64,000 bases of DNA from Sulfuriferula sp. (GTDB lineage Bacteria; Pseudomonadota; Gammaproteobacteria; Burkholderiales; Sulfuriferulaceae). A program made the translations under genes and the position numbers. The notes under the pieces were generated by a model that was not told the DNA's origin, did not search any database, and worked only from the letters and a program-made list of their open reading frames with translations. Numbering within the stretch: position 1 is the first letter of the stretch; the number at the start of each line of letters is the position of its first letter. Shown piece after piece: positions 57,706 through 62,893 of the stretch. The stretch covers positions 1-64,000 of the forward strand of contig JABFSE010000001.1 of NCBI GenBank assembly GCA_013140765.1, in the 5' to 3' direction.

Positions 57706-59276
<1,571 letters not shown>

Positions 59277-59327
59277 TTATCTTACTCACTCACTGAACTT
59301 TTAATCAATCGCACACTCTTATCTTGC

Positions 59328-59433
59328 AGATGGCGGTTATGCCGTCTCCCGCTTCTCCTCCCTGAGCGGGTACTCTGACACTAGTCAGGGTATTTTGACC
59401 TCGGTTATCCTCCCCTTTAACCGAGGTTTTTTT
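59328..59433 (+). ncRNA. Candidate small RNA with two anti-Shine-Dalgarno (CCUCC) hairpin loops
   Basis: The plus strand between hemB and engB folds into four consecutive hairpins. SL1: GATGGC 59329-59334 with GCCGTC 59341-59346. SL2: CCCGCT 59348-59353 with AGCGGG 59365-59370, loop UCUCCUCCCUG. SL3: a 9-bp stem 59371-59379/59384-59392. SL4: a perfect 10-bp stem 59398-59407/59418-59427, loop UCCUCCCCUU, then seven Ts: a classic terminator. No protein gene on this strand needs that terminator. Two C/U-rich loops complementary to Shine-Dalgarno sequences recall the CCUCCUCCC-type (cuckoo) sRNAs of Rhodobacter and the RcoF/NmsR sRNAs of Neisseria. A TGAACTT-N16-TCTTA promoter (59294-59321) would fit a sigma-E-like factor. 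The 5' end is estimated. Confidence 0.65.
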
Positions 59434-60040
59434 CGGCCTGCGATAACGCATCATCAAACCAACGCGCCGCGACTTGCTCGACTTCTTCTGTACCCGTTTT
59501 TTTCAAGCTGGAAAATAACTGCACCGTATAATTAGTGGCTATTTGCGTCAGTGCTTGCGTCACTTCACGTAGCACCGCCGCCGCCTCGCTACGATTTAAT
59601 TTATCCGATTTCGTCAGCAAACAATGTACAGGTTTACCCGTAGGTAAAAACCACTGCAACATATTCAAATCTAAGTCAGTTAATGGGTGACGTGCATCCA
59701 TAATCAATATCAGACCACATAATTGTGGACGCTCCGCCAAATACTGCGCCAATAACTCACGCCAATGATCTTTTACTGCATTAGGCACCTTCGCATAGCC
59801 ATAACCAGGTAAATCGACTAAATAACGCGTGCCGCCCAAAGAAAAATAATTGATATGCTGAGTCCGACCTGGTGTTTTACTCACAAAAGCCAACCGAGTA
59901 CGGTTAGCTAACGTATTGATTGCGCTAGACTTACCCGCATTAGAGCGACCAGCAAAAGCAATCTCCGCCGCACTCTCTACAGGCAGGTCGCATAGATGAT
60001 TAACGGTAGTATAAAACACCGCTGGTTGAAAAAAGTTCAT
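59417..60040 (-). CDS. engB: Ribosome biogenesis GTP-binding protein EngB (YihA/YsxC)
   Basis: The 207-residue GTPase has G1 [15 protein letters not shown]3 [10 protein letters not shown] and G4 TKSDKLNR, and acts in 50S subunit assembly. Start [20 protein letters not shown] is typical. It is divergent from the cytochrome c4 gene, the conserved betaproteobacterial arrangement. Its stop codon lies inside hairpin SL4 of the sRNA on the opposite strand. Confidence 0.95.
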
Positions 60041-60145: not shown

Positions 60146-60781
60146 ATGAAAAATACTATAGCACTTGCCGCATTTGCTGCTTTAACTGCATTTTCGACTG
60201 CCCAAGCAGAAGAAACAGTAGCGACCACGAAAGCAGATCCTGCACGTGCACAACAATTAGTGACCACTGTTTGTGCGGCATGTCATGGTGCGGATGGTAA
60301 TAGCACATCACCAACTTACCCAAAATTAGCGGGTCAAGGTGCAGAATACATCACCAAGCAACTCACTAACTTCAAATCTGGCGATCGTAAAAACCCTATC
60401 ATGTACGGCATTGTTACCAGCAACAACCTGACACCAGCGGATATGAAAGACTTAGGTCAATATTTTGCCAGCCAAACTGAAAAACCAGGCATGGCTAAAG
60501 ACAAAGAATTAGTCGAAGCTGGCGCAAAAATATTCAAAGGCGGTAATGCAGCTAGCGGCGTACCCGCATGTCAAGCCTGCCACGGTCCAGCAGGGGCAGG
60601 CATACCTGTGCAGTTCCCACGTCTGGCCAGCCAACATAAAGATTACATCTACGCACAATTAAACGCTTTCCGTTTAGGTGAACGCGCCAACGACGGCGGC
60701 AAAATGATGCGTACTATCGCTGCTAAAATGACTGACCAAGAAATGAAGGCCGCTGCTGAATATATCTCTGGCTTACATTGA
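60146..60781 (+). CDS. Dihaem cytochrome c4
   Basis: The 211-residue protein has a signal peptide (cleaved after STAQA), two class I cytochrome c domains with haem motifs C43-A-A-C46-H47 and C142-Q-A-C145-H146, and axial-ligand-type Met residues (NPIMYG and the MRTIAAKM region). Cytochrome c4 shuttles electrons in the periplasm to terminal oxidases. GAGGG lies before the ATG. The gene is followed by the System II maturation genes resB and ccsB, as in many betaproteobacteria. Confidence 0.94.
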   Translation: MKNTIALAAFAALTAFSTAQAEETVATTKADPARAQQLVTTVCAACHGADGNSTSPTYPKLAGQGAEYITKQLTNFKSGDRKNPIMYGIVTSNNLTPADMKDLGQYFASQTEKPGMAKDKELVEAGAKIFKGGNAASGVPACQACHGPAGAGIPVQFPRLASQHKDYIYAQLNAFRLGERANDGGKMMRTIAAKMTDQEMKAAAEYISGLH

Positions 60782-60886: not shown

Positions 60887-62893
60887 ATGAATAAACAAAC
60901 AGCCACACTATCCCGTTCGATTTATGAGCTCTTAAGCTCCATGCGTTTTGCAATTAGCTTGCTCACGATTTTGGCTATCGCATCCATTATTGGCACAGTA
61001 CTCAAGCAAAATGAGCCTTACGCTAATTACATTATCGAATTCGGGCAATACTGGTTTACGGTATTTCAATGGTTAGGCTTATATGACGTTTATCGTACTC
61101 ATTGGTTTGTTGTTATTCTCAGCGTATTAGTTGCTTCCACCAGCACCTGCATTTATCGCAATTTACCCATGATGTTGCGTGAAATGCGTAGCTATCGTGA
61201 AAATGCAACCGAACAATCTTTACGCCACTTTCAACACGTGGCAGAAATCTCAGGCAACCAGGTCAACGCCCACATCCTGACACAATATCTAGATGTACAA
61301 GGCTATCGCTACAAACAAAAACAAACAGGCGAACACCTGCTCATCGCCGCTAAACGTGGTAGTGCCAACCGTCTCGGCTATATTTTTACCCACAGTGCCA
61401 TCGTATTGATTTGTATAGGCGGCTTAATTGACAGCAACATCCCGCTCAAAATAGAGCAAGCGTTCGGCTGGAAGAAAATAGAAACACGCGATATTGCCGA
61501 AAGCCAAGTGCCTGCTATCAGTCGTTTATCCCCTAGCAATTTATCATTTCGCGGTAATGTCACTATTCCCGAAGGATCGAGTGCCGACGTGGTGTTCTTG
61601 AATATCGCTGACGGTTACATGGTGCAGGACTTGCCTTTCAAAATTGGTCTGACTAAATTTCACATTGAACACTATTCAACAGGTCAGCCTAAATCATTTG
61701 CCAGCGATATTACGATAATTGATAAAAAAACTAATCGCCCTATACTCAGCCATACTGTCACTGTAAACCACCCGTTAATTTATGATGGCGTTGCCATTTT
61801 TCAAGCCAGCTTTGGCGATGGCGGCACACGATTGAACTTAAACGGCTGGAACTTGTTTGACCACGCAGGCACACCTTTCCCAGTCAAAGGCGCAATACAC
61901 GACACCGCTAAACTTGCCGCTGACGATAGACAATACACGATAGAGTTCATGGATTTTCGCCCGTTTAATATCGAAAGTTTAGGCGATGCCAAAAACACCA
62001 TGCACGACACGCGTGCCGTTTTGGGCGGCAGTGCGGTAGCCGACAAAAAAGATTTACATAACGTCGGCCCTAGCTTCCAATACAAACTACGTGATGCTGA
62101 TGGACAGGCCAAGGAATACAGCAATTACATGCTCCCGCTCTTTATCGACAAACGCTGGTATATGATGTCGGGGATGCGTGACGCGCCGAATCAACCTTTC
62201 CAATATATACGCTTCCCACTCGACCCCGAACGCACGCTATCAGGCTTCATGCGCTTACGCGGCATCATGCTCGACCGCACCCGCCACCCAGAAATCGCCC
62301 AACGCTTTGTTGCCTATGCAATTCCTGACGCACCTGCTGATGTTAAAGCCAAGCTCATCGACAGCACGATTAAAGTGTTAGATATTTTTGCACAAGGCGG
62401 CTATAAATCGCTGTCTGCGTTTATAGAAGCTAAAATACCCGCCGCCGACCGTGACCAAGCGGCACAAACCTATCTAAAGATACTAGAGCTATCCACTTAC
62501 CAAGCCTATATACTCACGCAGGCACAAGCTCAACAGCCTGTACCTAAGATGGATGATGAAACAGGCTGGTTTATCCGTGATAGCTTAAATAGCATCAGCG
62601 ATATTTTCTTTTACGGCGCACCTGTTTATTTGCAACTTGCCAATTATGATGAAGTCCAAGCAACGGGATTACAATTAACCCGTTCGCCAGGCAAAAACAT
62701 TGTGTTTGGCGGTTCTGCATTATTAGTGCTAGGCGTGTTCGCCATGTTCTATGTACGCGAACGCCGACTTTGGCTATTAGTTAAACAAAATAGCGTATTA
62801 TTCGCCATGTCCAGCAATCGTAAAACGCTGGATTTTGAAAATGAATTTGCACAACATCAGCAAGACATTGCTGAACTTGTAAAAGGAACATAA
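60887..62893 (+). CDS. resB: Cytochrome c biogenesis protein ResB (CcsB/Ccs1 type)
   Basis: ResB is the large partner of the System II haem lyase. The 668-residue protein begins with the family pattern SIYELLSSMRFAISLLTILAIASIIGTVLKQNEPY, has three N-terminal membrane helices (about 20-40, 65-85, 165-185), a large periplasmic domain with VNHPLIYDGVAIFQASFGDGG, and a fourth helix near 610-630 (NIVFGGSALLVLGVFAMFYVRERR). It works with the protein encoded directly downstream. No strong RBS is seen. Confidence 0.94.
   Translation: MNKQTATLSRSIYELLSSMRFAISLLTILAIASIIGTVLKQNEPYANYIIEFGQYWFTVFQWLGLYDVYRTHWFVVILSVLVASTSTCIYRNLPMMLREMRSYRENATEQSLRHFQHVAEISGNQVNAHILTQYLDVQGYRYKQKQTGEHLLIAAKRGSANRLGYIFTHSAIVLICIGGLIDSNIPLKIEQAFGWKKIETRDIAESQVPAISRLSPSNLSFRGNVTIPEGSSADVVFLNIADGYMVQDLPFKIGLTKFHIEHYSTGQPKSFASDITIIDKKTNRPILSHTVTVNHPLIYDGVAIFQASFGDGGTRLNLNGWNLFDHAGTPFPVKGAIHDTAKLAADDRQYTIEFMDFRPFNIESLGDAKNTMHDTRAVLGGSAVADKKDLHNVGPSFQYKLRDADGQAKEYSNYMLPLFIDKRWYMMSGMRDAPNQPFQYIRFPLDPERTLSGFMRLRGIMLDRTRHPEIAQRFVAYAIPDAPADVKAKLIDSTIKVLDIFAQGGYKSLSAFIEAKIPAADRDQAAQTYLKILELSTYQAYILTQAQAQQPVPKMDDETGWFIRDSLNSISDIFFYGAPVYLQLANYDEVQATGLQLTRSPGKNIVFGGSALLVLGVFAMFYVRERRLWLLVKQNSVLFAMSSNRKTLDFENEFAQHQQDIAELVKGT

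Follow-up and report, generated by a model that had tools for sequence, protein, structure and literature searches.

The junction between hemB and engB in Sulfuriferula sp. raises the question of whether an RNA is made there and, if so, what would start it and on what it would act. In the window, the whole 64,000-nucleotide stretch of DNA analyzed here, hemB (58278–59276; PF00490, 457.3 bits) and engB/yihA (59417–60040; TIGR03598, 231.9 bits) both lie on the minus strand and were identified where the initial annotation had placed them. Between them, a small RNA (sRNA) gene is predicted on the plus strand at 59328–59433, with a transcript of ∼106 nt whose two ends we infer; hemB is its divergent and engB its convergent neighbor. 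The plus strand upstream carries no protein gene for ∼1 kb, as had been remarked, the last ORF of note before the RNA ending at 58314; the ORF list also holds two mechanical 94-aa ORFs antisense to hemB on this strand.

Folding of 59328–59433 gave four consecutive hairpins with a minimum free energy of −48.8 kcal/mol, as against −26.2 ± 3.3 kcal/mol for shuffled sequences (z = −6.9; 0 of 200 as low), which bears out the earlier description of four hairpins ending in a terminator. Hairpin 1 spans 59328–59347, hairpin 2 (CCCGCUUCUCCUCCCUGAGCGGG) 59348–59370, hairpin 3 59371–59392, and hairpin 4 59397–59428, the last forming with a T/U run to 59433 an intrinsic terminator (59397–59433). Both loops that had been described as anti-Shine-Dalgarno sequences are present: UCUCCUCCCUG at 59354–59364 in hairpin 2, the proposed mRNA-pairing site, and UCCUCCCCUU at 59408–59417, a second C-rich loop in hairpin 4. 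A sigma-70 scan of 59100–59600 returned 0 sites, and the same scan, which allows terminator loops of up to 8 nt, listed no terminator, hairpin 4 having a longer loop.

The initial annotation had presented the RNA as unannotated. A scan against all Rfam families led to rejection of an unannotated or unique sRNA, since 59345–59434 matches anti-hemB (RF02837) with 70 bits, above the gathering cut-off of 49.5; the RNA is therefore real but already catalogued. Its position between hemB and engB and the pairing of hairpins 2–4, which is kept in relatives, agree with membership of this family. The Rfam model, unlike the present description, includes neither hairpin 1 nor a promoter. A broader covariance model described below, R2, matched 59326–59433 with 103.3 bits, the window copy being inside its training set.

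The same RNA is known in Burkholderia cenocepacia as ncS04, which resembles the window RNA in sequence and structure (above the cut-off), in its hemB-engB place, and in its length of ∼105 nt. In the excerpts available, ncS04 appears in Table 1 as a 105-nt RNA with strong biofilm expression and is named in a Northern blot legend, where Hfq binding is cited from earlier work (PMC5688073). Excerpts of a second study give the 105-nt length, a terminator, the gene order ← → ←, and co-purification with Hfq (PMC4603805), and the anti-hemB RNA of B. pseudomallei is listed as trans-acting in those of a third (PMC3521395). Quantitative PCR of ncS04 in B. cenocepacia, as excerpted, gave no significant change in the seven tabulated conditions (PMC5688073). 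Neither rpoE nor engB is mentioned in PMC5688073, nor rpoE in PMC4603805. What is new here is the covariation of hairpin 1, the sigma-E-type promoter in the order, the class-wide tie to engB and polA, and the link to the sRNAs ErsA and sX13.

Conservation of the structure was assessed in the genus and order, where RF02837 matched in 53 of 61 genomes (own genome included), 48 of these above the cut-off. Alignment A1 comprised 30 loci, namely the window's own and the best-scoring ones of those 61 genomes, two of which (L010 and L011) are nearly identical. With the 5′ hairpin included, the alignment contains 28 pairs, 17 of them with two-sided changes, and 96.3% of cells are paired. Two-sided cells numbered 95, compared with 30.3 ± 5.8 in 500 shuffles, none of which reached 95; kinship among the sequences inflates such shuffle tests, but slid controls nevertheless also fell far below the observed value. 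Two-sided changes were found at 4 of 4 modeled pairs in hairpin 1, 8 of 8 in hairpin 3, and 5 of 9 in hairpin 4, and the paired cells in hairpins 2, 3, and 4 amounted to 98.5, 97.4, and 96.5%, respectively. Hairpin 2 has no two-sided changes, its letters, including the loop, being almost fixed in the 30 loci. Covariation therefore cannot test this hairpin, and a near-fixed loop is as expected if it pairs with a fixed partner. The check that had been put forward, a covariance search of related genomes at the hemB-engB junction, was thus positive, with a conserved, covarying RNA and a near-fixed anti-Shine-Dalgarno loop. The word CUCCCU occurs anywhere in the RNA in 52 of the 55 copies of a further alignment, A3, and CCUCC in 72 of the 94 copies of the engB survey described below. 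A looser C-rich word count in survey copies was dropped because G+C-rich stems satisfy it too.

Upstream of the RNA, on the plus strand, lie a −35 element of the sigma-E (RpoE) type, TGAACTT (59294–59300), and, after a 16-nt spacer, a −10 element, TCTTA (59317–59321). This sequence had been read as suggestive of a stress sigma factor, and its conservation supports a sigma-E-like promoter. The entire 2.18-Mb genome contains the strict pattern GAACTTN{16,17}TCTNA 4 times, compared with once for the reversed pattern, the 4 sites being those at the window RNA, at rpoH, and within two ORFs. At rpoH (TIGR02392, 399.3 bits), the −35 box of the strict motif lies 58 nt before the predicted start; this gene, with its sigma-E-type promoter (L370; G000:C1:88516), is situated behind an ORF pair that resembles ftsE/ftsX by eye. 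The genome also encodes RpoE itself (328.8 bits), followed by RseA and MucB/RseB, and TGAACTT-N17-TCTTT is found upstream of its rpoE. Inspection of the 30 A1 loci revealed a (G/T)GAAC(T/C) box followed 15–17 nt later by a TC(T/A) box in 30 of 30, with 10 or 11 of the 12 consensus letters matched and the −35 box 48–56 nt before hairpin 2; the count is not that of a random sample because these are the best-scoring loci of the order.

A promoter weight matrix trained on the 30 A1 loci was applied to the engB-survey copies. Judged against 3760 control windows, 72 of 94 copies scored above the 99% level, 52 of them also above the 99.9% level, and the remaining 22 fell below the 99% level. In the Burkholderiales family f45, 6 of 6 copies fell below the 99% level, as did 4 more from a single genome of this family, and in family f32, where the promoter is weakened, 3 of 5 passed; by contrast, 8 of 8 further copies from other families of the order passed, the windows used for all of these copies being wider than the control windows, which favors passing. 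The f45 copies that are without the sigma-E motif include L428–L430 of G636, L413 of G167, and L410, L412, L414, L416, and L420, and G636 carries five anti-hemB copies in one genome. The promoter switch and the multiplication of anti-hemB look lineage-specific. Overall, genome comparison suggests that the envelope-stress sigma factor activates anti-hemB, and the constancy of ncS04 in B. cenocepacia may reflect a putatively weakened promoter in that group.

To establish the genomic place of the RNA beyond the order, RF02837 was run on the class, where 94 of 369 genomes matched at E ≤ 1e-6 and 21 exceeded the cut-off. Among 29 loci taken from these matches (L031–L059), two of which belong to the window's order, engB was convergent in 16 and polA lay upstream on the same strand in 15, a sixteenth polA candidate (L058) being a 36-residue match only; hemB was within the examined stretch in 1 of 29, in the window's order. 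Model R1, built from 30 Burkholderiales loci, found 29 of 29 (E 7e-19 to 8e-10), as expected because RF02837 had chosen those loci.

Model R2, built from 55 copies with no ErsA or sX13 among them, was applied to 178 loci centered on engB. This survey is non-random: it combines 30 loci from the top of the list, 79 among the matches listed, with families already taken mostly skipped, and 29 + 40 loci from 76 chosen genomes, some of them known RF02837 or sX13 carriers; six places from the chosen-genome set were left out, and four loci with <200 nt beyond engB were kept in the count. The search gave 100 matches at E ≤ 1, of which 94 are convergent with the engB 3′ end. Four of the other six lie on engB's own strand beside its 3′ end; the remaining two are the outermost member of a four-copy array and a match on the far side of engB. 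Counted by locus, anti-hemB is convergent with engB in 85 of 178 (76 with a match of at least 29 bits), 9 of the 85 being in genomes whose copy also trained R2. In 58 loci polA lies upstream of the junction, and 49 of these carry the RNA. The 85 positive loci divide into 49 with polA, 2 with hemB (both in the order), and 34 with neither in the examined stretch. A pattern scan of named genomes with the promoter box and the hairpin-2 letters, used without gene information, yielded at least 120 stretches, which are not population counts; among these, engB was convergent in 91, hemB divergent in 81, polA present in 12, and at least one of the three present in 105, and 61 had the strict −10 pattern at spacings of 13–16 after GAACTT. 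Nitrosospira, Thiobacillus, Azoarcus, Zoogloea, Ectothiorhodospira, and Thioalkalivibrio are among the matches listed. The anti-hemB family extends across the class, and its association is closer with engB and polA than with hemB; in much of the Gammaproteobacteria, the same gene occupies the gap between engB and either polA or hemB.

A search of 378 genomes of the phylum with R2 at E ≤ 0.001 matched 30, of which 20 belong to the order (own genome included), 6 to other parts of the class, and 4 to lineages outside it. In the stretches fetched from the 4 genomes outside the class, tblastn with the proteins of the window's genome found no polA, engB, or hemB, and the same was true of G581 and G334 inside the class; R2 matches without those neighbors were counted as unproven, paralogous, or convergent. 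One such match outside the class, L422 (G764:C1:675547–675657), scored 44.2 bits (E 2.7e-7). Two to four copies occur close together, beside engB or elsewhere, at L217/L065 (G231), L141 (G166), L086 (G382), L114, L070, L101, L134, L432 (G050), L036, and L041, several of them with a sigma-E-like promoter of their own, like sibling sRNAs. Two copies at L036 (1500–1770) weakly match mmgR (28.8 bits) and the betaproteobacterial toxic sRNA RF02278 (28.7 bits), and a c-di-GMP-I riboswitch (77.9 bits) was found at L047 (2037–2121), near the engB-sRNA locus of a gammaproteobacterium.

The Rfam name points to a cis-antisense RNA that regulates the 5′ leader of hemB or the 3′ end of engB. At the window locus, a hemB leader would overlap the −35 box, which begins 18 nt from the hemB start codon, and 17 nt of the engB 3′ end are overlapped by the RNA. 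This overlap had been pointed out and stands as a feature of the window, but antisense action on engB is disfavored, as the RNA end passes the aligned engB C terminus in 8 of 85 loci and overlap is thus not a family feature. A haem-related cis-antisense role is likewise disfavored because hemB is not a conserved neighbor, being seldom found outside the Burkholderiales (1 of 29 and 2 of 85 loci, all in the order). The proposed connection of the locus to haem and cytochromes is not supported, hemB being the neighbor mainly in the Burkholderiales and polA often taking its place elsewhere; the ORFs past engB that by eye resemble a two-haem cytochrome c (60146–60781) and ResB/Ccs1 (60887–62893) make up a cytochrome neighborhood that seems incidental. 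Given also that copies exist with neither hemB nor engB in the examined stretch and that the hairpin 2 loop is near-fixed, regulation of the neighbors in cis is very improbable.

Transcription by sigma-70 as a housekeeping sRNA without stress control would account for the unchanged ncS04 level in the tabulated conditions excerpted and for the absence of the promoter in f45 and its weakening in f32. Set against this are the empty sigma-70 scan at the window locus, the sigma-E motif kept in the 30 best-scoring loci and in all 8 other-family copies, and the occurrence of the same motif before the genome's own rpoE and rpoH, which make a housekeeping role unlikely, if less so than cis-antisense action. 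Anti-hemB is most likely a trans-acting repressor of translation that is under sigma-E control in this lineage; the global scope proposed for it earlier is not supported.

A working model in which anti-hemB (RF02837) is an independent ∼105-nt transcript that is started by RpoE, acts in trans, and blocks mRNA translation through its C-rich loops is held with good, although not high, confidence. Envelope stress would free RpoE from RseA, and RpoE would then start transcription at TGAACTT-N16-TCTTA, the transcript ending at hairpin 4. The C-rich loops (CUCCUCCC in hairpin 2 and CCUCCCC in hairpin 4) would base-pair with selected mRNAs at G-rich sequences in or near the Shine-Dalgarno site and so block their translation, probably with the help of Hfq, which is suggested because ncS04 co-purifies with it. 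The design is shared with sX13, and the loops of anti-hemB mimic the anti-Shine-Dalgarno sequence of 16S rRNA. In the excerpts available on sX13, repression of target fusions required both the C-rich loops and G-rich motifs close to the start codon, compensatory changes in loop and target failed to restore action, and Hfq was dispensable (PMC3771888).

Candidate targets were sought in the genome with the pattern GGGAGGN{4,12}ATG, which gave 28 sites compared with 3 for the reversed pattern, 13 of them with an ORF of at least 50 aa. This crude list of GGGAGG sites had no functional or envelope theme and was set aside because it mostly mirrors strong Shine-Dalgarno sites. Candidates by eye with GGGAGG before the start codon include a sulfate adenylyltransferase-like ORF inside the window (L386; G000:C14:49468) and, elsewhere in the genome, HflC-like and MurE-like ORFs (L397 and L374).

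In enterics, MicA and RybB constitute the sRNA arm of the sigma-E response. Anti-hemB is a candidate for such an arm outside the enterics, and a little-studied Burkholderiales sRNA gains a promoter, a genomic setting, and a mechanism that can be tested. The 2013 study of sX13, in the part available, asked whether the polA locus elsewhere encodes sRNAs that act like sX13 (PMC3771888). In the class loci examined, the polA locus often does encode an sRNA, which answers the first half of that question.

The relation of anti-hemB to ErsA and sX13 was examined next to these results. In the excerpts available, ErsA lies in the polA-engB gap and is linked to sigma-22 (PMC8575079), and sX13 is an sRNA of the polA locus, behind polA (PMC3771888). 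R2 matched the ErsA gene where it is known to lie (E 0.0014), and likewise three sX13 genes of the Xanthomonad type (E 0.002, 0.0047, and 0.016). R1 matched ErsA (E 0.0014) but, at E ≤ 0.01, missed all three of these sX13 genes, and a genome-wide R2 search with stricter filters at E ≤ 0.001 reported neither the ErsA genome (G222) nor an sX13 genome (G072). The window copy itself scored 21.4 bits against ErsA (RF01719; E 0.033) and 19.9 bits against sX13 (RF02232; E 0.074), each below the cut-off of 50. The link is statistically modest.

Further cross-matches were found at particular loci. The tandem array beside engB in G231 comprises four copies, all matched by RF02837 (35.9–41.8 bits); one copy matches sX13 with 48.3 bits and the other three weakly (28.4–29.8 bits, E 0.1–0.22), and one matches ErsA (37.1 bits, E 0.0014). 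Family f224 has, behind polA, a locus near sX13 (L064; 49.5 bits) and another, L426, for which sX13 scores 40.1 bits (E 1e-4), R2 42.3 bits (E 5e-7), and RF02837 a faint 24.1 bits (E 0.057). A second sX13-like RNA was seen at L431 (G334:C128:10118–10205; RF02232 32.8 bits, R2 32.4), the sX13 gene of that genome being on another contig.

Unrelated origins, with ErsA and sX13 converging on C-rich loops in a favored place and anti-hemB standing alone, would fit the weak covariance scores: those of R2 for ErsA and sX13 (20–24 bits) lie below the 29–44 bits of scattered matches outside the class, and since the latter are not flanked by polA, engB, or hemB, such scores can arise from C-rich hairpin likeness. 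The alphaproteobacterial RNA ar14 (RF02344) cross-matches too, with up to 38.0 bits elsewhere and 27.8 bits on the window copy (59336–59433; E 0.0013), the latter below its cut-off of 58.8. However, all 6 sX13/ErsA loci have polA directly upstream (engB was identified at one of them), GAACC or GAACTT lies upstream of 5 of 6, the G231 array is matched by both RF02837 and RF02232, and both f224 loci, one nearer sX13 and the other matched by R2 and sX13, lie behind polA. Convergence is consequently considered doubtful, although a more serious contender than either alternative weighed above, and ErsA and sX13 are, on balance, probably diverged orthologs of anti-hemB. In the open-access papers searched, no two of the three RNAs were found named together.

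ErsA (Pseudomon-1, RF01719, of Pseudomonas) shares with anti-hemB the place behind polA, C-rich loops, and a terminator hairpin, and carries upstream GAACTT-N16-TCATA, comparable to the anti-hemB promoter. sX13 (RF02232, of the Xanthomonadaceae) shares the place behind polA, stable hairpins, and C-rich loops but differs in its independence of Hfq and in a −10 region that by eye is unlike sigma-E. Another RNA of similar look is ar14 (NfeR1), which carries anti-Shine-Dalgarno loops; weak matches to it (28–38 bits) recur at window 59336–59433, L217, L061, L118, and L431. The initial annotation had likened the loops, which would pair with Shine-Dalgarno sequences, to those of the cuckoo (CCUCCUCCC-motif) and RcoF/NmsR sRNAs; the families that matched the window copy after RF02837 were ar14, ErsA, and sX13, all below their cut-offs. 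Spot 42 (spf) of E. coli is alike in arrangement, polA(+) spf(+) yihA/engB(−). It was rejected as a sequence relative, since searches at E ≤ 1 gave no match of R2, the class model, to L245, the E. coli region, and none of RF00021 to the window region. Spot 42 is controlled by CRP and is not known to have C-rich loops.

These likenesses permit a wider reading, which is tentative and falls a little short of an even chance: anti-hemB, sX13, and ErsA would be one orthologous, class-wide sRNA, present beside engB/polA since the early Gammaproteobacteria (including the Burkholderiales), ancestrally driven by sigma-E as a silencer of mRNAs through C-rich loops, and later rewired. Three separate Rfam families may then be one, and this one orthologous RNA would be the original envelope-stress sRNA of the class. 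In the course of its rewiring, some Burkholderiales families would have lost the sigma-E promoter and others would have multiplied the RNA in tandem, and in enterics Spot 42 would have taken its place at the same position.
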